A stretch of DNA of 38,434 nt, from the IMG/VR virus record IMGVR_UViG_3300038305_000088, positions 1 to 38,434 of that record; one strand, given 5' to 3'. Positions 1,717 to 22,003 of the stretch are shown here, piece after piece (position 1 is the first letter of the stretch; every line of letters begins with the position of its first letter). The stretch is from a virus. Under the pieces are notes generated by a model. That model searched no databases and was not told the DNA's origin. It saw only the letters and a program-made list of their open reading frames with translations. Made by a program: the position numbers and the translations under genes.

Positions 1717-2046
1717 TTATGATATGTCTTCTGTTATTACGACCCTAATGAAACTGGAGTTTGGGAAGGTCTCAACTTTCCCATCAGCATAAGCCACCTC
1801 AAACTCAGCTCGATATGAATCGCTGACTGAAGTGTCATCACCTTGCCAGATATATTCTACAGTCGCTTCAGTCACATCAAATATTTCCGCAGCACCTGAA
1901 ACGATGCTACCGCCCGTCATAGGTTGCATCTTAAATGAAACAGAAGCGCCATTTAGATTTACATAAGCGCCCAGGGCGTCCTTTAAAGACACCCTAATTG
2001 TTGGGCTGAAATCGTTGCGCTTTATAAAAAACTCTTGGGCCATCAT
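1717..2046 (-). CDS. BppU-like baseplate/tail-appendage beta-sandwich protein
   Basis: A 109-residue protein with the pattern of the BppU N-terminal type domain: FFIKRNDFSPTIRVSLKDA, a VNLNGASVSFKM strand, then YIWQGDDT and YRAEFEVAYADGKVETFPN. In phages this fold anchors receptor-binding or fibre proteins to the tail tip. The start is ATGATG: the first ATG overlaps the upstream stop (ATGA), the second (2043) has better spacing from AAGG. It directly follows the giant repeat protein and may bind it or the fibre complex. Confidence 0.7.
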   Translation of the reverse strand: MMAQEFFIKRNDFSPTIRVSLKDALGAYVNLNGASVSFKMQPMTGGSIVSGAAEIFDVTEATVEYIWQGDDTSVSDSYRAEFEVAYADGKVETFPNSSFIRVVITEDIS

Positions 2047-4805
2047 TCCACCTTATTTTTTCCGTCGCTCAACAATACCACAAAATTGATGCTGGGCGCT
2101 ACTGTTACAGAATTTTCGCTATTTTCAGCCCCGGCGCTGCGGCTAAATAGCATTTCCGCCCTATCAACGTCAGGCGCACCCGTGATAACATTTCCAACAG
2201 AGAAGCTCTCTGCCTCAGACATCGGGCAATCACCAATGTCAGGAGCGCCAGTGTAGTTATCAGGAACACCAATCGCATAGAAGGCAACGACAGAAGCTGC
2301 ATCTATTACCGGGACACCTGTGGTTACATCAGTTGCTGCCAGCAGGTAATTTTCAGTAAATACAGCGTCATCAACTTGTGGAGCTTCAGTAGAAACTGAG
2401 AGGGCCAAGATGTCATGGTTCTGCGTAATAACAGCCGTGAATACTAATGGAGCGCCCGTATTGACATCATCCCCATCAATAACGTGATCTTGGCTAATAC
2501 CAGAGGTATCAACAGCAACAGAGCCAGAACTTACAACAGAAGTCGTGAAGATGTGTTCTTCATCAATGTCAGTTGAATTGACCCTTGGGTTGCCCGTCAG
2601 GACATCATTACCGTCAATAAAGTGATGTTGCTCAAGAGCGCCTTGCTCAACTTCTACCGCGCTGGTGACAACATCTTCGACTGAGAAGGTTTCATCCTCA
2701 GCCATATTGGCTGTTTCTGCGAATGAAGCACCAGTGGTAAACCCGTTTGCAAGAAGTATGTGGATTTCTTGATATACAGCTTGCTCAACACTTGGAGCGC
2801 CAGTTGCAAGATCTTCGCCGGTAAAGTCATAAACTACACTTGCTTCAACCTCGTCAATAACAGGTGATCCTGTTTCAACATTATTCGCGGACAATAGTTG
2901 GCCCGAGAAGAAAGCAGAAGTTGGGACGATAGGCGCTTGAGTGTAGATGCTGGCCGTTGTGAAGGTCTCATACTCAGCCATGTTTGCTGTAGGAACATCA
3001 GCGGCGAGGGTAGTTACATCATTGCCATCGGTAACGTGAAGTTGAGTTATCCCTGTTGCGTCAACATCAGGAGCTTGGGAATAAAGGTCTTGCTCACCTA
3101 GAACATGGTTGACGACCATTGATGTGGCATCAACAACCACCGCACCAGTATCAAACCCATCAGCAATAATGCGATTGATGTAATCAAGGGTTGGGACTAC
3201 TGGAGCCTCAGTTTCAACATCATTTGTATCTGCTACAATGTTTATGACTGCGGAGGCATCATCAACAACTGGCGCTGACCCTGTAAGGTCGCTTTGAGGC
3301 TCAAACTCATGCTCAGTAATCATCTGAACGTCAGGGACTACTGGCGCTCCAGTTACAGGCGCGGAAATAATCTGTGTTACTTGAGAAGGGCGATCAATAA
3401 AACCGTTGTCAAAGAATTTAATTTTAATTGCAGAATTCGGGCGAATTGAGTCCCCGACTGAGTAATTAGTTTCAGCAACTCTATAAAGAACAGCTCTATC
3501 TTCAAGGATAGATTTCAAGGTAAAGTTATTTGCACTAGAAAGCGAATTTTCCCTAGCGGGAGATATAGAGATAGCTTCTCGCTTGCTGGAGCTTTGGTCA
3601 TACTCCCAATACCATTCTGATTTCAAATAGCCGGGATTTTGGGGGTCTGGAACTCTATCCTCAAAAACCCTAAGCTCTGACGGATCAACAGTAGACGTTC
3701 TTAATCCAACACTGCTAGAAGTTGGGTAATTCGTTCCGTGATATTCAAAAGACCCAATAGTGACATTAAATGGAGACGTGCCCTTCTGTAAAGTAACCTT
3801 TTTCCTTTTGGGAGAAAGACTATTTGTTCCCGGCCCTACATAGTCCAAAAGAATATATACATAAAAGGAAATCTCAGATGAGGTCTCCGTTATGTCTTTG
3901 ATTACAAAATTGGATGGGTATTCATTAACATTAGTATCAAGATAAATATTATATGTTGTTCTAGGTATCGGATTGCTGTAATCAAACCCACCATCGTAAT
4001 AATCTAACTCAACATAACCAGCATTCATCCTTGGTGCGGGATCAATTTCCTGCAAACTAGAAGACCCGACAACTACTACACCAGTAAATACGTTTGATGT
4101 GTTGAAGGTTTCGTCTTCAGCCATGTTGGCTGTATCAACAACCACACTGCCAGCAACGGCGTCAGGTGCAGAAACATCGTGATCTTGACTTAACGAAGAG
4201 GTATCAACCGATGGCGCAGAAGTGGTTACACCTACAGCGGAAAGAACAGACGAAACTGTCATTCCCAAGGAGTCAACAACAGGGCTTCCTGTGGTGACAT
4301 CATCGGCAGATAGAGACTCAACTTGTGTAATTGCGGCTGTATCTACCGATGCAGGGGCGGTGAAGATACTGCTAGTGGTGAATGTCTCATATTCAGCCAT
4401 ATTGGCGGTTGGAATATCGACTGCACCTGTGGCCAAATCATTGGTTGTAACAACATGATTTTGACTTACAGCAGCACCACCAACGGACGGTGGCCCTGTG
4501 TAAAGGTTAGCAACCGCAAGAACCTTGTTCAAGGATGCAACTGCATCAGCGATGTCTGGGTTGCCCGTCAGGATGTCACTGGTAACGAGAACGTGCTCAA
4601 CGTCCATAACAACGCTGTCAGCTACAGGAGCTTGTGTCTCAACAGACGCAGCGCCCATGACTTGTGTTTGGCTAAAGCTGACTTGATCGACGCTAGGGGC
4701 AGACGTAGTAATATCGGACGTTGACAGTGCAACAACACCACCAGCGTCTTCCTCAACAATATCACCCCCGAGTGGGGCCGAAGCTAATGGGTTAAAGCCA
4801 AGCAC
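2043..4805 (-). CDS. 920-residue repeat-built tail appendage protein
   Basis: A very large, acidic, Val/Thr/Ala-rich protein that is mostly a tandem array of about 28 degenerate 23-residue units with consensus like LxAxDVxTGAPxVDxAxxxQ. Ten units (residues 27-254) and eighteen (480-890) flank a unique 225-residue domain (255-479) rich in Tyr, Pro and Asp, beginning near NAGYVELDYYDGG. There are almost no Cys or Lys residues in the repeats. Such solenoid arrays are typical of extended fibres or adhesins; location between fibre genes and the lysis cassette supports a tail fibre or side appendage. The unique domain could be a binding or trimerisation module. It overlaps the downstream gene by ATGA. 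Confidence 0.75.
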   Translation of the reverse strand: MLGFNPLASAPLGGDIVEEDAGGVVALSTSDITTSAPSVDQVSFSQTQVMGAASVETQAPVADSVVMDVEHVLVTSDILTGNPDIADAVASLNKVLAVANLYTGPPSVGGAAVSQNHVVTTNDLATGAVDIPTANMAEYETFTTSSIFTAPASVDTAAITQVESLSADDVTTGSPVVDSLGMTVSSVLSAVGVTTSAPSVDTSSLSQDHDVSAPDAVAGSVVVDTANMAEDETFNTSNVFTGVVVVGSSSLQEIDPAPRMNAGYVELDYYDGGFDYSNPIPRTTYNIYLDTNVNEYPSNFVIKDITETSSEISFYVYILLDYVGPGTNSLSPKRKKVTLQKGTSPFNVTIGSFEYHGTNYPTSSSVGLRTSTVDPSELRVFEDRVPDPQNPGYLKSEWYWEYDQSSSKREAISISPARENSLSSANNFTLKSILEDRAVLYRVAETNYSVGDSIRPNSAIKIKFFDNGFIDRPSQVTQIISAPVTGAPVVPDVQMITEHEFEPQSDLTGSAPVVDDASAVINIVADTNDVETEAPVVPTLDYINRIIADGFDTGAVVVDATSMVVNHVLGEQDLYSQAPDVDATGITQLHVTDGNDVTTLAADVPTANMAEYETFTTASIYTQAPIVPTSAFFSGQLLSANNVETGSPVIDEVEASVVYDFTGEDLATGAPSVEQAVYQEIHILLANGFTTGASFAETANMAEDETFSVEDVVTSAVEVEQGALEQHHFIDGNDVLTGNPRVNSTDIDEEHIFTTSVVSSGSVAVDTSGISQDHVIDGDDVNTGAPLVFTAVITQNHDILALSVSTEAPQVDDAVFTENYLLAATDVTTGVPVIDAASVVAFYAIGVPDNYTGAPDIGDCPMSEAESFSVGNVITGAPDVDRAEMLFSRSAGAENSENSVTVAPSINFVVLLSDGKNKVE
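2136..3368 (-). repeat. Tandem 69-bp coding repeats, block 2 (18 units)
   Basis: Eighteen units of the same 23-residue module, nearly all exactly 23 residues long. A sub-variant containing TANMAE(Y/D)ET recurs in both blocks, which suggests blocks rather than single units were copied. Separated from block 1 by a unique 675-base segment. Confidence 0.85.
4044..4727 (-). repeat. Tandem 69-bp coding repeats, block 1 (10 units)
   Basis: Ten consecutive degenerate 69-base units encode 23-residue modules such as LSADDVTTGSPVVDSLGMTV. Nine are exactly 23 residues; the last is 21. DNA identity between units is low, so the periodicity is kept at protein level, implying old duplications under structural constraint. 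Confidence 0.85.
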
Positions 4806-4808
4806 TGA

Positions 4809-5114
4809 TTAGTTGCCCCGTAGGTCAAGCCAATCGCTTACGCGAGTAGCCACTTGCGCATCGGTTAGATCATTTCCCTCTTCATCAGTCATAGGCCGGT
4901 CAGCGTGAAGACCTTGCACATATGTTGTTAGCTCCGCGAGAGTGTAAGTCTCAACGGTATCTGGAACGTAATACTTACGGGCGTTCAGGTCAGGCGACCA
5001 GCCAATGTATTCATGGGTGACAGGGTTATAAAAGTAACCACCATCTTCGATCCACTCTGGAGCCTTCATGGACTTGCCACGACCCGTGCGGTGCATCTTG
5101 TATTTGATAATCAT
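4809..5114 (-). CDS. Small conserved tail-region protein, function unknown
   Basis: A 101-residue soluble protein. The N-terminal half has aromatic motifs PEWIEDGGYFYNP and YIGWSPD, followed by a helical, acidic C-terminus ending SDWLDLRGN. An AGGAG ribosome binding site precedes the ATG. It sits between the propeller-like fibres and the 920-residue protein; proteins with a similar WIEDGGYFYNP opening occur beside tail fibre genes in other phages. An assembly or attachment factor is plausible but unproven. Confidence 0.7.
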   Translation of the reverse strand: MIIKYKMHRTGRGKSMKAPEWIEDGGYFYNPVTHEYIGWSPDLNARKYYVPDTVETYTLAELTTYVQGLHADRPMTDEEGNDLTDAQVATRVSDWLDLRGN

Positions 5115-5138: not shown

Positions 5139-6152
5139 TTAGGCAGAGCCTGATGTGTACTGATAAATTGTATCGTTACTAAATTGCAATATATACATCT
5201 TTGTTCCATCCTCCGAAAAGTGCAGACCTTGTGCGGAGTCAGCTTGAGTTGCATGAGAATAACTAGACGTTAGACTCGCGTTGGTTAAGTCTGAAGCAGT
5301 AGACATGACTATTTCTACTACAGTATCTGCAACCGAATCAGAAAGGTAAATGTGAGTTTCTGCGCGGTTCACATAAATATCTGTAACACTCTGAAATAGT
5401 GAGGCTGAACCAAAAGAAACATTATTATATGAAAGGGTTGAAATATCAAAAGCTGTTGAGAGGCTATATTGATAAACTTTATCACCGTTATAATCTGGCA
5501 TATAAACTTTCGTTCCATCTATATTAAACATTAAACCCAATGGCCCAGTGTTTGCACTGTTAATAGTGCTGAGAAGTAAAGACTTATTGTCATATGAAGC
5601 AGATGTGACATCCCAAGCGGTACTTAAAGTGTAAGAAAAAAGAGTGCCCCCATTCTGCATTATAAACATTTTTGTGCCGTCATACGAAAAGTCTATACCG
5701 TGTGGCGTAGTTGATTGACTTGAAACACCGAAGTTTTGAACGTAACTAGCTGTACTCAAATCCCAAGCTGTTGATAGGTCTAAACGATAAACTCTGTCAT
5801 CGTCATTCCCAATAACGTACATCTTTGTCCCGTCTACACTAAGGCGAAATGATCTAGGGTACTGCTCATTAAATGTGCCAGTACTTATACTATCATAAGA
5901 AATAGAAGACGTATCAACATACCAAGGAAAAGGATTTGATATTCCAATAGCCTTAAACTCACTATTCAAATACTGGTACAGTAGCTCGTTAGTGCTATCC
6001 CACCAGAAGTCACCTGTGGACGGTGAAGCTGGCTCAGTGGCGCTGGAGGTGTAACCTTGCAGGATGCTCTTGCCGCCAATGTTAAAAGCCCCATTGGGGA
6101 AGTCTACAGCGGAACCATTGTTAGCGATACTATTAACTTTGAGAGTGCTCAT
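5139..6152 (-). CDS. Tail fibre/receptor-binding protein with five propeller-like repeats (copy 3)
   Basis: A 337-residue protein with an N-terminal tail-attachment type region (LKVNSIANNGSAVDFPNGA, then ATEPASPSTGDFWWDSTN, about residues 1-75) and five repeats of about 50 residues containing a DGTKMY-like turn and a YxLSTAWDLSTASY strand (about 80-337). The last half-repeat ends DTIYQYTSGSA and could be closed by the first strand WYVDTSSISYDS, as in a velcro-closed beta propeller. The fourth repeat is degenerate (RAETHIY). Third and most diverged of three tandem paralogues; the intergenic gap is three bases, with no strong ribosome binding site, suggesting coupled translation. Confidence 0.75.
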   Translation of the reverse strand: MSTLKVNSIANNGSAVDFPNGAFNIGGKSILQGYTSSATEPASPSTGDFWWDSTNELLYQYLNSEFKAIGISNPFPWYVDTSSISYDSISTGTFNEQYPRSFRLSVDGTKMYVIGNDDDRVYRLDLSTAWDLSTASYVQNFGVSSQSTTPHGIDFSYDGTKMFIMQNGGTLFSYTLSTAWDVTSASYDNKSLLLSTINSANTGPLGLMFNIDGTKVYMPDYNGDKVYQYSLSTAFDISTLSYNNVSFGSASLFQSVTDIYVNRAETHIYLSDSVADTVVEIVMSTASDLTNASLTSSYSHATQADSAQGLHFSEDGTKMYILQFSNDTIYQYTSGSA

Positions 6153-6155
6153 GAG

Positions 6156-7187
6156 TTATAATCCTGTGCTGTATTGGTAGACATTGTCACTAGCGTTATC
6201 AATTATATACATCTTAGTTCCATCAGTGTTGAATTCTATACCTGAAGGGGCGCTAACTGAGGTTAGTACAACAGAGACGCTATCGTAGGAAGCCGTGCTT
6301 AGGTCAAAACCTGTTGATAAACTGTATTGGTGGACACGGTCGCTGGAGCTGCCAACCATATACATTTTAGTGCCGTCAGTGTTGAACGATATGTCGAAAG
6401 GGCTAGTATCTTGAGAACTTACACTTAAAGTAACACTGTCGTATGAGGCTGTGCTCAAGTCAAAGCCTGTTGATAAACTATATTGATATACACTATCTCC
6501 GTTAATACCAATCATATACATCTTAGTTCCATCAGTGTTGAATTGCACACTTACAGGGCTAGCATCTTGAGCACTTACACTTAAGGTAACACTGGAGTAG
6601 GAAGCGGTGCTTAGGTCAAAAGCTGTAGATAAACTGTATTGGTAGACTCCCTTGTTGGCCAAGCCAACCATATACATCTTAGTTCCATCAACGCTGAATT
6701 GTAGACCATAAGGAACAGTATCTTGAGAACTTACATAGATGCTAACGCTATCATAGCTTGCGGTGCTCATATCAAAAGCTGTTGAGAGCGAATACTGATG
6801 GACTGAGTCGCTGGAGGTGCCAACCATATACATTTTAGTGCCGTCAGTGTTGAACGCTATACCTGAAGGGCCACCCTCTTGAGCACTTACACTGAATGAC
6901 ACACTATCATAAGTCACATTGGACAAGTCTACAGTCCAGCTTACAGCACCGCCAGCACCAATCACACGCACCCAAGCGTCTCCGATCAAAATGTCATAGG
7001 TGTCATTAGCAGTGTCGTAGAAAGTATCCCCATTGCTGGATGTCTCTGCGTCAGGCTGCGTCGCGCCCTCTGTACGAGTAGGGGCAAGCAAACCGCTGTC
7101 TGTGCCAGAGATTTTCAAACCTTGGCTGAAGTTAGGGCTACCTGTGCCAGCACGGTCAGTGATCTTTGTCGTTAGAAGTTCACTCAT
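6156..7187 (-). CDS. Tail fibre/receptor-binding protein with five propeller-like repeats (copy 2)
   Basis: A 343-residue paralogue of its two neighbours. The N-terminal region (about 1-80) has the fibre-type phrase GDTFYDTANDTYDILIGDAW. Five very regular repeats follow, each with NTDGTKMYMVG and QYSLSTAFDLSTASYDS, ending VYQYSTGL. The repeats are more alike than in the other copies, suggesting recent internal duplication or gene conversion. The stop-to-start junction GGTTATAATCC is nearly the same as in the following gene, a duplication scar. Confidence 0.75.
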   Translation of the reverse strand: MSELLTTKITDRAGTGSPNFSQGLKISGTDSGLLAPTRTEGATQPDAETSSNGDTFYDTANDTYDILIGDAWVRVIGAGGAVSWTVDLSNVTYDSVSFSVSAQEGGPSGIAFNTDGTKMYMVGTSSDSVHQYSLSTAFDMSTASYDSVSIYVSSQDTVPYGLQFSVDGTKMYMVGLANKGVYQYSLSTAFDLSTASYSSVTLSVSAQDASPVSVQFNTDGTKMYMIGINGDSVYQYSLSTGFDLSTASYDSVTLSVSSQDTSPFDISFNTDGTKMYMVGSSSDRVHQYSLSTGFDLSTASYDSVSVVLTSVSAPSGIEFNTDGTKMYIIDNASDNVYQYSTGL

Positions 7188-7190
7188 GGG

Positions 7191-8216
7191 TTATAATCCT
7201 GTGCTATATTGGTGTATTGCGTCAGTATTGTCAGCAGATAAGTACATCTTACTGCCATCAGCGTTGAAGGTTATGCCACCAGAACCGTTTTGTTGAGTAA
7301 GAACCGCGGTGTTAATACTGTCATAAGAAGCACTAGTCACGTCCCAAGCAGTAGATAAAGTATAACTAATTACACCTGTTTGAGACTGAATAAGCATCTG
7401 CGTCCCTTCAGGGTTAAAACAAATGCCCCGTGGAACGAGAGTCTGACTTGAAACACTGAAGTTTTGAAGGTAACTAGCTGTACTCAAATCCCAAGCTGTT
7501 GATAGGGTGTGCTCCCTAACATCATCTGCAGAAACATCAACAATATAAAGTTTTGTGCCTTCAGCACCAAAAAATAAACCTTGAGCCGATCCACCGCCAC
7601 CGTGAGCATAGTTAACACTATTATAAGAAGCTGTGCTTAAATCCCAAGCAGTAGATAAATTTATTTCGTATGTTCTATCGGATATGTACCCTAAAAAGTA
7701 CATTTTTGTACCATCAGTGCTAAACCTTACCCCAGTAAGAGCCCCTTCGCCCTGACCGCCAAACGAAACACTGTCGTAACTAGCTGTGCTTAAATCAAAC
7801 GCCGTTGATAGAGTGTATTGAAAAGTGCTGTCATTTATATACCCATTAATATACATTTTAGTACCATCAGCGCTAAACTCTGGCCCCCCATAGAGACCAG
7901 TCTCCTGACTAGCTACACTAAAGCTAACACTATCATAACTTACATTAGACAGGTCTACAGTCCAATTTGAAGCACCAGCAGCAGCACCAAGCTCAACTTC
8001 CTTAAACTCACCAGCAATATAAACCATGACCTTATCGTTGGCCGTGTCTTTCCAGATAGCTCCGTTCTTGGGGCTAGCTGGCTCAGTCCCAGTCTCGTAA
8101 TACTCAGCAGTATTAAGAGTGCTCAGAGCCGCTCCAGCAACGGTCAAACCTGACGTAAAGTCAGCAGCAGCCGTACCAGCGGCATCAACAACATTATCAA
8201 CTTTGATCTGGGTCAT
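7191..8216 (-). CDS. Tail fibre/receptor-binding protein with five propeller-like repeats (copy 1)
   Basis: A 341-residue paralogue, first of the tandem trio. N-terminal attachment-like segment (IKVDNVVDAAGTAAADFTSG, then GTEPASPKNGAIWKDTAND), followed by five repeats with (A/T)DGTKMY turns, two of them altered (AEGTKLY, PEGTQM). The C-terminus DAIHQYSTGL would pair with WTVDLSNVSYDS at the start of the repeat region. The start overlaps the upstream stop as ATGA. Role inferred from domain layout and position in the tail module. Confidence 0.75.
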   Translation of the reverse strand: MTQIKVDNVVDAAGTAAADFTSGLTVAGAALSTLNTAEYYETGTEPASPKNGAIWKDTANDKVMVYIAGEFKEVELGAAAGASNWTVDLSNVSYDSVSFSVASQETGLYGGPEFSADGTKMYINGYINDSTFQYTLSTAFDLSTASYDSVSFGGQGEGALTGVRFSTDGTKMYFLGYISDRTYEINLSTAWDLSTASYNSVNYAHGGGGSAQGLFFGAEGTKLYIVDVSADDVREHTLSTAWDLSTASYLQNFSVSSQTLVPRGICFNPEGTQMLIQSQTGVISYTLSTAWDVTSASYDSINTAVLTQQNGSGGITFNADGSKMYLSADNTDAIHQYSTGL

Positions 8217-18279: not shown

Positions 18280-19512
18280 TTATGCGCCGTCGTTGTTAAA
18301 CGCAAACGATACAGCGTGACGTACAGCCACATCGCATGTTTGCAATGCAACGATGCGTACAGTGCCGCTTGTGCTGCTGGTGTATGGATCAACAACAATG
18401 TCCAAGCCGCCGTACATGCCGATCAGCAAGTCAGCAAAGTTGCCGAAGTACAGATCGCCTGCTGTGACTTGGTTGGACACGATGGTGTTGTAACCATTCA
18501 TGTTGCCGTCTGGGCCAACTACGAACTGGCCTGAACCAGCGTCTTTTGCAGTTGTTTTCAGAGCGCCATACATGCCTGCTGGGGCGATGTATGCCAGGTT
18601 GCCAGACAAAGCGTTGTCTTCTGCAACCGCAGTTTCCATCGCAACAACTTCTGCGAAGGTTGGGTTTGCAGCAGCAAAGTTGGTTGGAGCGTTGATGCCC
18701 GATGTGTTTTTCACACCTGTTGGCTGACCAGACGAACCCGTGCCTGCCAACGCACCCAAGTCAATTGCGAGAGCAATTGCAGTGGACAAGTCGTTACGCA
18801 CGAGGGCTTCAATGTCCAGGCTGGACTGCATCATCATCAAACGTGTGATGTCTGTGAACGCGCCGAGTGTTTTTGGTGCCATTGTGACTTGGCCCAAAGT
18901 TGGCTCGCTCTCAGAAGCAGCGCCACCTTCAGTGGAAATCCAAGAAGCAGCCGATGCGGCAGTTTTCTTTGGGATTTTCACGTTGCCGGACAAACCAGAC
19001 AACATTGTGGCACCTGCCTGCATAACCGAAGATTGGTTGCGCAGAACGTCGATGAAAGAACCGCCACGGAAGTCATCTGCAATTACAGCAGCGTCATCTG
19101 TGGTGTTCAGGTCACGAACAGCCCATGAACGAAGAACTTCATTTGGGATCATGATGCCTTGGGCTTCGCGGCCATAGGCTTCAGAAGCTGCGGCAGATGC
19201 CTCAAGTTCAAAAGCGGCAGCTTGCTGTGCAGCACGATCAGTTGGGTTGGCGTGAGCGCGGATCGCTTTCAGCAAAGAGAACTGGCGAACTTCTTTCGGT
19301 GCAAGACCGATTTCAGTGTTGTCCAGCGGCTTGTTGCCGATTACGTTCAAAAGCTCGCCGCGGAACTCGGCCAATGTGCGGCCTTCTGCAACGGCTTTTT
19401 CAGCCATATCACGCTGCTGGTGCTTACCACCAAGAGCATAGATTTCGGCATGGTCTTTTGCGGCGGCGCGAACAGCTTCGGCCTTCACCGCTTCAATGTC
19501 AATATCGGACAT
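18280..19512 (-). CDS. Major capsid protein from internal start
   Basis: An in-frame ATG at 19512 (MSDIDIEAVKAEAVRAAAKD) with AAGGAGG exactly five bases upstream would make a 410-residue HK97-fold capsid protein alone, a normal size for this family. The first ~100 residues are the charged helical delta (scaffold-like) region; the later part has the typical QGIMIPNEVLR, GGSFIDVLR and P-loop/A-domain strands. This nested start would let capsid be made in large excess over protease. It is a strong candidate but not proven. Confidence 0.8.
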   Translation of the reverse strand: MSDIDIEAVKAEAVRAAAKDHAEIYALGGKHQQRDMAEKAVAEGRTLAEFRGELLNVIGNKPLDNTEIGLAPKEVRQFSLLKAIRAHANPTDRAAQQAAAFELEASAAASEAYGREAQGIMIPNEVLRSWAVRDLNTTDDAAVIADDFRGGSFIDVLRNQSSVMQAGATMLSGLSGNVKIPKKTAASAASWISTEGGAASESEPTLGQVTMAPKTLGAFTDITRLMMMQSSLDIEALVRNDLSTAIALAIDLGALAGTGSSGQPTGVKNTSGINAPTNFAAANPTFAEVVAMETAVAEDNALSGNLAYIAPAGMYGALKTTAKDAGSGQFVVGPDGNMNGYNTIVSNQVTAGDLYFGNFADLLIGMYGGLDIVVDPYTSSTSGTVRIVALQTCDVAVRHAVSFAFNNDGA

Positions 19513-20538
19513 AGTAGCCTCCTTTTGAGGGGTTGGGTTAGGTGTACGGTGTTGAAGGTCGTCATCTGCGCTCCGGCCAACGCCGACTGTCCTGTCAGCG
19601 GGGATAGATACAACAGAAACTTCCATTGGAAGCCAATCGACAGCCCGGTAGCTACCCTTGCCATCTTGTTCCAATTTGTTGACTTGGTAGCCAACTGAGA
19701 TGTTGCTGCGAATACCGTCAGAAACATCATCAAACACATCTTTGGCAAGTCCGTTCTTTCCAAAACGAACCGTCGCACGCAATCTGCGCGCCGAGCCATC
19801 CAATGTGACTGATTCCACAACGCCAATCTGCTGGCGAGGATCGTGATCCAAGAGCAAAGGGGCGCGACCACTATTCAGGAACGACAGGTCAATGCTGCGC
19901 TCAGAGTGATCTAAAACTTCATTTCCATATCCACGCTCAACTGGCTCCTCAGAAGAAACAGCAATTTGAACGCGGCGAGCCTCAACGTCAATGACCTTCT
20001 TCTCTGCGGATACAGCGCGAGAGATCAGCTTCTCAGGGGCTAACCGAGTCTCCTCAGCCCCATCAGTCGGCTCCTCTGCGGCACACTCAGTTTCTTCTTG
20101 GCGAACTTCATCTATTACTTCATCAGCAACAGTTTCAGTTTCCGCATCACGAACTTCAGTCATTACTTCGCCCTCAATATTTTCGGGCATTATATCAGAA
20201 TTTCCGACATTTTCCATAGAGCGTTCCTTTTCCATTCTATCAGCTAATTTGCGCGACCAACTGAAGCCAGCATCGCCGCCCCAGAGCGCCCAGGCTATGC
20301 GCCCGTTTGATGGATAGCCATCCTCGCCAGGACGGAACCCCTCGGCCTTCTTATCAACCTCATGTCGGCTGAAAAAAGAATACATCCGCTTAACCGTATC
20401 GTCAGACAAGTTCTTGCCGTTGGAAATATCACGCGCCCGCGCAATCCCAACCTCAGTACCGCCACGGCCATATTCGCTGCGCCAGTCCAAGCCCTTCTTG
20501 GCCTCAGATACCATTCCGCTGGTTGGTTTATTCGTCAT
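18280..20538 (-). CDS. Prohead protease-major capsid fusion (HK97 type)
   Basis: A continuous 752-codon frame. Residues 1-105 contain GLDWRSEYGRGGTEVG and SNGRIAWALWGGDAG, a module found in structural proteins of many phages. An acidic linker (about 106-185) leads to the U35/S78-type prohead protease (about 186-320) with His232 in LLLDHDP, Ser281 in NISVGY and Glu306 in PMEVSVVSIPAD, the presumed catalytic trio. Residues 343-752 are the HK97-fold capsid protein with a helical delta region first. The start at 20538 has GGAGG nine bases upstream and overlaps portal by 11 bases. Self-cleavage or internal initiation would be needed to free the capsid subunit. Confidence 0.9.
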   Translation of the reverse strand: MTNKPTSGMVSEAKKGLDWRSEYGRGGTEVGIARARDISNGKNLSDDTVKRMYSFFSRHEVDKKAEGFRPGEDGYPSNGRIAWALWGGDAGFSWSRKLADRMEKERSMENVGNSDIMPENIEGEVMTEVRDAETETVADEVIDEVRQEETECAAEEPTDGAEETRLAPEKLISRAVSAEKKVIDVEARRVQIAVSSEEPVERGYGNEVLDHSERSIDLSFLNSGRAPLLLDHDPRQQIGVVESVTLDGSARRLRATVRFGKNGLAKDVFDDVSDGIRSNISVGYQVNKLEQDGKGSYRAVDWLPMEVSVVSIPADRTVGVGRSADDDLQHRTPNPTPQKEATMSDIDIEAVKAEAVRAAAKDHAEIYALGGKHQQRDMAEKAVAEGRTLAEFRGELLNVIGNKPLDNTEIGLAPKEVRQFSLLKAIRAHANPTDRAAQQAAAFELEASAAASEAYGREAQGIMIPNEVLRSWAVRDLNTTDDAAVIADDFRGGSFIDVLRNQSSVMQAGATMLSGLSGNVKIPKKTAASAASWISTEGGAASESEPTLGQVTMAPKTLGAFTDITRLMMMQSSLDIEALVRNDLSTAIALAIDLGALAGTGSSGQPTGVKNTSGINAPTNFAAANPTFAEVVAMETAVAEDNALSGNLAYIAPAGMYGALKTTAKDAGSGQFVVGPDGNMNGYNTIVSNQVTAGDLYFGNFADLLIGMYGGLDIVVDPYTSSTSGTVRIVALQTCDVAVRHAVSFAFNNDGA
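19518..19524 (-). promoter_or_regulatory. Internal Shine-Dalgarno for the capsid domain
   Basis: AAGGAGG on the coding strand, five bases before the in-frame ATG at 19512, within the protease-capsid linker (PQKEAT). A perfect site is not expected by chance at the exact domain boundary. Confidence 0.8.
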
Positions 20539-22003
20539 TGACTTCAACCTCCGCCGGGACTGGCTGCTTGTCGCCAAACGGCTCGTAAGCCATCTTCAGG
20601 TTGAACGCATCAGCCATCTCTTTGTCACGCTGTATCTGGGCAAACGTCTCTTCAGCATCACGGCCATAGTTGGCAGCGATGTCAGTGTGGCTCAAGATGC
20701 CGTTCTGCAACCCTACAACTGCCGCATTGATCTCTTTCAGAGGATCAACCCACTGGAAGCCTCGCGCACGCCAAGATATGCCTGCGCTGAACTTGGCGAT
20801 CTTATTTGTGCCTGAGATCGGAATAACGCCAAAGCCCATAACATGCTCAAGCCACTCGCGGAACAGAGGATCAATGAAGTGGTCGATCATAAACCGATGC
20901 AAGGTGCGATAGAAATCACGCTCCTCAAGCGCACCCTGGCGGATCGACGAATATGACGTACCCTCCAGGTCATTGGCCAGTGACGTATAACTGATACCCA
21001 AACCGCCCGCGATACCGCGCAAGACAGCTTTCTCAAAGTCAGCAAAAGCTGAATTAGGGTGAGTAGGATCAAACGCAGTGAAATCAACGCCAGCCGGAAG
21101 CTGGTGGAACGTACCCGCCTCTGCGTCATAGATCGGCGTTACATCATCCTCATAGCCGTCAGCCGTAAAGCCATCGCCCGCAGGGGACGTAAAAAAGCCC
21201 ATCTTCGCAGCGCCGACACGGGCAGCAACCAATTCAGCCTCACGATAACCGTGCAGCATCTTCAGCGAGGCTATAGCGGAAACTGACCAAGGCACCCCTC
21301 GCGTCTGATCTGCGCGATCTGGACGGTAAATGTGCATCATCCTCTCAGCAGGAATGCGAGTGCGCTTCTTACCGTTGGCCAGTGTAGTGTAATCGTAATC
21401 GCCAGGGTGAGCCGTCAAAACGTGGTAGGCGACAGGGCGACGGGTTGATTCATCAATCTCAATGCCCATGCGGATCGGGTTGCCGCCTTTGACGCGCTCA
21501 TTGTGATCTTCGTCAATCATGTCAGGCTCAATGAGCTGCAAAGCATACCCCTGACGCAAATAGCTCGCACGAACCTTCATCAGGAACACTTCGCCATCAC
21601 GCGCAACGCCAGTGATGACGTGATTGAGCAAGTCAATCATTGACATCTGGCCGTCAACCGTAGGGCTACCATAACGGCAGAACTCAGACCAAGCATTCTC
21701 AACAATGTTGTTGCCGCCCATGTCCATCCCGCCGTCGGGATTGCGAGCCTTCATCTGTAGGCGTATCCCAGCCTCACCGACCACATTGGTGCGCAATAGC
21801 TGCAAATACCTACGCATGTATTCGTTGTTACGCTCAAGATCACGGGAGCGGTTCCGCAAGTCGCGCAGGACAGGATATATCTCACTGTCAGCACTGCGAT
21901 TGCTTGCGTTGAAGTCAGCGAAAAGCCGCCCTTTGCTGGCGGCTGCATAGTTTCTGCGGTTTTGCGGCTTCTTAGACCGACTGAAGATGTCCAAAATGCC
22001 CAT
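20528..22003 (-). CDS. Portal protein (lambda gpB-like)
   Basis: A 491-residue portal. It shows family motifs: LRNRSRDLERNNEYMRRYLQ near residue 45, GVARDGEVFLMKV about 130, a RMMHIYRPDRADQTRGVPW segment about 225, and LEGTSYSSIRQG about 340. It forms the dodecameric vertex for DNA passage. Gene order terminase, gpW-like, portal, protease is lambda-like. The start overlaps the upstream stop as TAATG. Confidence 0.9.
   Translation of the reverse strand: MGILDIFSRSKKPQNRRNYAAASKGRLFADFNASNRSADSEIYPVLRDLRNRSRDLERNNEYMRRYLQLLRTNVVGEAGIRLQMKARNPDGGMDMGGNNIVENAWSEFCRYGSPTVDGQMSMIDLLNHVITGVARDGEVFLMKVRASYLRQGYALQLIEPDMIDEDHNERVKGGNPIRMGIEIDESTRRPVAYHVLTAHPGDYDYTTLANGKKRTRIPAERMMHIYRPDRADQTRGVPWSVSAIASLKMLHGYREAELVAARVGAAKMGFFTSPAGDGFTADGYEDDVTPIYDAEAGTFHQLPAGVDFTAFDPTHPNSAFADFEKAVLRGIAGGLGISYTSLANDLEGTSYSSIRQGALEERDFYRTLHRFMIDHFIDPLFREWLEHVMGFGVIPISGTNKIAKFSAGISWRARGFQWVDPLKEINAAVVGLQNGILSHTDIAANYGRDAEETFAQIQRDKEMADAFNLKMAYEPFGDKQPVPAEVEVNDE

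Follow-up and report, generated by a model that had tools for sequence, protein, structure and literature searches.

A conserved start codon with its own Shine-Dalgarno (SD) sequence lies inside a gene in which a marine phage encodes a prohead protease fused in frame to an HK97-type major capsid protein, and comparison of related sequences strongly supports that the capsid alone can be made from this codon. We consider it probable that the gene has two products, a long protease-bearing fusion and a short capsid precursor which assemble together, and that it arose by loss of the stop codon between two ancestral genes. The window, i.e. the whole stretch of DNA analysed here, is a virus record of 38,434 bases with a terminase and a portal of lambda type (Pfam), whose closest cultured relatives over the terminase–capsid block belong to the CRP-822 group of roseophages (71% DNA identity for CRP-811).

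The fusion gene and its internal start codon

The first-pass annotation had described a 342-residue N-terminal part fused in frame to an HK97 capsid protein at 18280–20538, leaving the strand unstated. Both the coordinates and the residue count were correct, and translation places the ORF on the minus strand, where it runs from 20538 to 18280 (ATG 20538–20536, stop 18282–18280) through 752 amino acids plus stop without an internal stop. The genes and start signals are as follows.

20528..22003, minus: portal gene of the lambda family (Pfam PF05136, E 7.9e-97)
18280..20538, minus: protease–major capsid fusion gene (translation; Pfam S78 and Phage_capsid above cut-offs; PHROG 617)
20539..20554, minus: ribosome-binding region of the fusion start, GCGGAGG with a 9-nt spacer (sequence)
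19518..19526, minus: internal Shine-Dalgarno AAAAGGAGG, 5 nt before ATG (sequence; −11.8 kcal/mol; conserved in relatives)
18280..19512, minus: internal ORF for the capsid precursor alone, 410 aa, same stop as the fusion (conserved Met column)

The motif AAGGAGG-5-ATG reported at the domain boundary was indeed found there, at 19524–19510 on the minus strand. The boundary sequence CCTCAAAAGGAGGCTACTATGTCC consists of a near-perfect SD, five bases (CTACT) and the ATG at 19512–19510, which encodes Met343 after exactly 342 codons, and in the AlphaFold model this Met falls inside a linker that separates folded domains and is predicted to be disordered. At the fusion start, the SD has an energy of −10.7 kcal/mol in near-identical copies. 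The portal ORF (22003–20528, minus) overlaps the fusion start by 11 nt, an arrangement in which translational coupling is possible; the fusion start may depend on coupling to the portal stop, which could lower its use.

Two further candidate elements were evaluated. CCTC...GAGG at window positions 19518–19533 (minus) could form a small hairpin over the internal SD, and perfect linker hairpins of at least 4 bp were present in 42 of 121 relatives (22 ± 4 in recoded controls); we do not claim a hairpin that sequesters the SD, given a folding energy of −4.20 compared with −4.14 in recoded controls. A sigma70-like match at 20216–20189 was considered as an internal capsid promoter; matches of this kind are frequent in this DNA, and scanning for them gave no evidence for one.

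Elsewhere in the window, three tandem paralogous genes of 337–343 aa (5139–8216, minus; 36–45% identical among themselves) lie near a gene for a 1096-aa tail-fibre/host-specificity protein. Two of them had no PHROG match and the third only weak, short ones; they are perhaps alternative or stacked tail-fibre parts. At 2043–4805 (minus) a 920-aa protein rich in Ser, Thr, Val and Ala is encoded, which had no PHROG match.

Domain anatomy of the 752-residue protein

The full-length AlphaFold model, built from a 64-sequence alignment, consists of well-predicted modules separated by three disordered stretches (residues 113–180, 324–346 and 476–493). Its parts, in the order of translation, are listed below.

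20200..20538, minus: N-terminal all-helical module, residues 1–113, PHROG 2859-like (PHROG 2859 match at 3–108)
19999..20199, minus: acidic disordered linker, residues 114–180 (pLDDT <50 over 113–180)
19570..19998, minus: S78/U35 prohead protease domain, residues 181–323 (Pfam, invariant columns, folded in the model)
19501..19569, minus: disordered inter-domain linker, residues 324–346, containing the internal start (pLDDT <50 over 324–346)
19114..19511, minus: delta/scaffold-like helical domain, residues 344–475 (helices 348–470 in the model)
19060..19113, minus: probable maturation-cleavage linker, residues 476–493 (pLDDT <50 at 476–493; 8gta chain start)
18283..19095, minus: mature HK97-fold capsid, approximately residues 482–752 (8gta match E 1.9e-51; Foldseek HK97-fold matches)

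The N-terminal module was modelled as five helices with a mean pLDDT of 85.6; neither Pfam (up to E 1) nor a fold comparison with the PDB gave a match. It is strongly conserved (window 20200–20538, minus; L103:2974-4953). The same module heads a Vibrio phage protein whose gene directly precedes that of the capsid (weak DUF2213 match, coiled-coil annotation), and occurs in a putative DNA-binding protein of PaBG, in haloarchaeal virus proteins and in Nodularia phage proteins.

The protease domain matched Peptidase_S78 (PF04586) at residues 219–317 with 32.1 bits (cut-off 21). H232 and S281 are invariant in the 64 aligned relatives and H211 is near-invariant (at least 90%); from knowledge of the family we take these three residues to be catalytic. 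By its score and the conserved Ser and His residues, the domain belongs to the S78/U35 group, and protease activity is predicted. Phage_capsid (PF05065) matched residues 492–746 with 127.8 bits (cut-off 24.2), and both sequence and fold identify this part as an HK97-fold capsid. The match of the delta domain to Pfam Scaffold was weak and below the cut-off.

A guide to the mature capsid is 8gta, the cryo-EM chain of the capsid of the fused homologue R4C (268 residues, R4C residues 362–629). Its first residue aligns with residue 482 of the window protein, in the third disordered stretch, although the deposited chain may be the modelled part only and does not fix the exact mature terminus. In R4C the internal Met lies 173 residues before the first residue of this chain, which follows the delta domain, so mature capsid N-termini should look alike whether the precursor arises from an internal start or by cleavage; as a refuting test, which the first-pass annotation had proposed, they are not diagnostic. 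Passages of the R4C structure paper make no mention of a protease or of cleavage.

Conservation of the internal start

The internal Met occupied one alignment column in all of the first 80 IMG/VR relatives (80/80, three of them shifted by two residues), and a GGAG- or GAGG-type sequence preceded it in 80 of 80 close relatives, in which the linker residues around it are poorly conserved. Among 159 distinct fused loci, 144 had a linker ATG with an SD of −5.5 kcal/mol or lower and 15 fell short of this threshold, whereas of the remaining 3262 in-frame ATGs of these genes only 18.3% reached it. Where a linker held several ATGs (one to four per linker) the best one was chosen, which favours the internal start somewhat; by our estimate this choice lifts the chance expectation to approximately 30%, far under the 91% observed.

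The strength of the SD was also compared with that expected from the encoded peptide. At the internal ATG, the SD pairing energy averaged −8.69 kcal/mol over 37 distinct upstream sequences from close relatives, compared to −2.20 kcal/mol at 999 in-frame ATGs elsewhere and −5.26 ± 0.48 kcal/mol after synonymous recoding (z = −7.2, which overstates the significance because related sequences are not independent). A better test is given by changes in the codon frame of the SD along the capsid tree: there were at least 21 such changes, and all three frames are used. The peptides encoded by the SD accordingly differ (for instance K-E-A, Q-R-S-D-P and R-G-S-E), and there are 84 distinct peptides over the last four linker positions. 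Since recoding weakens the SD, and since it occurs in three frames with different peptides, protein constraint cannot explain it.

The boundary ATG, usually with an SD, is kept in cultured phages down to approximately 35–45% identity. It was found at the boundary, or no more than a few codons away from it, in phages of Escherichia, Salmonella, Pseudomonas, Xanthomonas, Vibrio, Halomonas, Rhodobacter, Dinoroseobacter, Roseobacter, Acinetobacter, Achromobacter, Burkholderia and Synechococcus. In loci of the NCBIfam family NF045541 from alphaproteobacterial genomes, a linker ATG with an SD was present in 13 of 15 (19% of other ATGs). The cyanophages S-CBS3, S-CBS1 and S-LBS1 (L085, L086 and L088) have an ATG at or near the boundary with no convincing SD, where initiation is possibly SD-less.

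The Met column, the SD statistics, the frame changes and the NF045541 loci together bear out the first-pass proposal that the capsid could be made alone. By its sequence, the gene has what a nested dual-start gene would be expected to have, namely a conserved in-frame internal start with its own ribosome-binding site, and we infer that ribosomes actually initiate there.

Distribution and origin of the fusion

Protease and capsid were encoded in one frame in all of the first 80 IMG/VR relatives except L045, and the fusion was present in 203 of 216 related loci, most of the others being truncated contigs. The 216 loci include 34 from bacterial genomes, whose record titles name Proteobacteria, Bacteroidota, Chloroflexi, Planctomycetota, Chlorobi and Myxococcota; these are mostly MAG labels, and the host assignments are soft. 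Loss of a stop between the domains by sequencing or assembly error, which the first-pass annotation had named as one finding that would overturn it, is ruled out, as other IMG/VR contigs carry fused copies that are 100% identical and 57–99% identical.

In L045 a frame break lies inside the protease region, which could equally be a real split or a sequencing error. CRP-823 has the N-terminal module in its own overlapping ORF (L084:1983-2699) before the protease–capsid ORF (2659-4911), again either a split or a sequencing error.

The comparison of fused and separate genes among relatives, as had been suggested, also yielded pairs of separate genes. In Cellulophaga phage phi39:1, gp11 and gp12 are separate genes that correspond to the two halves of PHROG 617 and overlap as TAATG, and the protease and capsid genes of a faecal phage overlap as TAATG too. 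These pairs suggest that the fused state arose when the stop separating a protease-then-capsid pair was lost in frame and the capsid start with its SD was kept.

The protease–capsid fusion is already catalogued (PHROG 617, NF045541) and hence not new; PHROG 4523 is likewise named 'major head and protease protein'. In the open-access full-text literature, to which our search was confined, we found no description of an internal start or of the translation of fused protease–capsid genes. As far as searchable sources go, the conserved internal start is the undescribed part.

Two proposed products from one gene and the alternatives

In the working that we propose, ribosomes starting at 20538 would make the 752-aa fusion of N-terminal module, protease, delta domain and capsid, and those starting independently at 19512 would yield the 410-aa precursor of delta domain and capsid. 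The prohead would consist mostly of the short form, joined through the shared delta/capsid part by a minority of fusion subunits, so that the protease would be carried inside as part of a capsid subunit. Once the prohead is complete, the protease would cut away the delta domains and probably cleave its own linker as well, leaving a mature capsid of approximately 271 residues. An ancestral protease-then-capsid pair would have given rise to this gene by in-frame loss of the separating stop with the capsid start retained. The ratio of the two products, the co-assembly of the fusion and its self-release are putative; that the internal start sets the protease:capsid ratio and places the fusion in each prohead, as the first-pass annotation had put it, is a sound inference.

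Space inside the prohead limits the share of the long form. HK97 proheads contain 415 capsid and approximately 60 protease molecules, and those of D3 approximately 90 proteases, which in both phages enter as separate proteins (PMC12749128). With these copy numbers and an assumed HK97-size inner radius of 180–200 angstrom, 415 long subunits would put approximately 22 MDa inside, or 79–109% of the interior; for CRP-831, whose internal start is preceded by 536 residues, an all-long prohead would need 116–159%, whereas 60 long and 355 short subunits of the window protein would take 31–43%. On this estimate, either internal starts supply most of the capsid or the fusion has to be cleaved ahead of assembly, and the conservation of the start favours internal initiation. 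SD strength as the setter of the ratio is unsupported: the two starts are about equal in close relatives (mean −9.1 kcal/mol for the fusion and −8.7 kcal/mol for the internal start; in 18 of 37 sequences the internal SD was the stronger). Coupling, mRNA structure or start efficiency would therefore have to account for the ratio.

Three other explanations have to be weighed against the two-product gene. The least credible, to which we give hardly any weight, is that the Met and the GGAG-like codons are kept by chance or for protein reasons without internal initiation. The linker does have Glu at −4 in 97% of close relatives, and GAG and GAA codons aid SD-like strings; yet the SD is kept where that Glu is missing (CRP-831 with Q-R-S-D-P, VP882, phiHAP-1) and in other frames, the synonymous null is rejected, and the NF045541 family has the same pattern. 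Chance or peptide constraint is thus nearly excluded, and it is the retention across frames that largely refutes it. A somewhat better case, still an improbable one, can be made for a polyprotein, in which the 752-aa fusion is the only source of capsid, the linker is cut before or during assembly, and the internal ATG is a relic. Split homologues show where such a relic would come from, S78-type proteases cleave capsid precursors, and the linker is predicted to be disordered and accessible. A relic would decay, however, and here SD and ATG persist while the linker varies and the SD moves frame at least 21 times. Moreover, by the packing estimate a full complement of uncut fusions would be implausible inside a T=7 prohead, and cleavage ahead of assembly would yield protease and capsid at 1:1 and risk early loss of the delta domain.

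The strongest competitor, which we nevertheless regard as unlikely, accepts both products and lets the fusion cleave itself early, the freed protease being packaged, as the separate protease of HK97 is, by other contacts, for example of the N-terminal module or the portal. The separate proteases of HK97 and D3 do enter the prohead in approximately 60 and 90 copies (PMC12749128), and the N-terminal module also stands at the head of the Vibrio phage protein encoded just upstream of its capsid gene. This explanation gives no reason for the fusion in nearly every relative, however, and needs a second uptake route. We therefore keep to two products that assemble together, and for the at least two fused families, which occur in phages and prophages across many bacterial phyla, we lean towards the view that each gene gives two products and that the fusion is an obligatory shell subunit delivering the protease.

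If so, this would be a widespread mechanism, not described until now, by which HK97-type heads set the dose and the location of their protease, convergent with the long and short protease–scaffold pair of herpesviruses; many shell subunits and few protease-bearing ones could come from a single gene. If co-assembly holds, the gene would also offer a simple system for the setting of protease copy number in HK97-type heads, with the two start codons as the handle, and a bacterial parallel to the herpesvirus protease–scaffold arrangement. When such a gene is annotated as a single large 'major capsid protein', the true beginning of the capsid precursor is overlooked, which affects structure work, proteomics and capsid-based phylogeny.

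Comparison with known systems

The closest known family is PHROG 617, 'major head protein' (phiHAP-1, VP882, ECO1230-10, FoX/Murka, RcCronus, R4C, CRP-811), to which the window protein matched over residues 174–747 (profile 11–620 of 626, E 3.1e-152). Its members are also fused, and the cultured ones resemble this gene in having the portal just upstream and an internal ATG at or near the domain boundary, which is unannotated in the records examined; many cultured myophage members differ in lacking the N-terminal module. The NF045541 family, 'prohead protease/major capsid protein fusion protein', shares the fused domain order and the linker ATG with SD (13 of 15), but the window protein scored 153.6 bits against a cut-off of 525, mainly over the protease/delta part, and lies outside it. 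In phi39:1 the homologous halves are separate genes overlapping as TAATG.

HK97 and D3 are like this gene in the order portal–protease–capsid, the delta domain and cleavage-type maturation (PMC12749128), but their protease and capsid are separate polypeptides. Here a single ORF, fused in 203 of 216 loci, carries both together with an internal start. The likeness to nested protease and scaffold genes that was noted at the outset is apt: lambda C/Nu3 and herpesvirus UL26/UL26.5 each pair a protease-bearing long form with a protease-free short form that has a common C-terminus in one frame, the short form of herpesviruses being made from a second transcript. In those systems the shared product is a separate scaffold distinct from the shell, whereas in the present gene it is the delta domain together with the major capsid protein itself.
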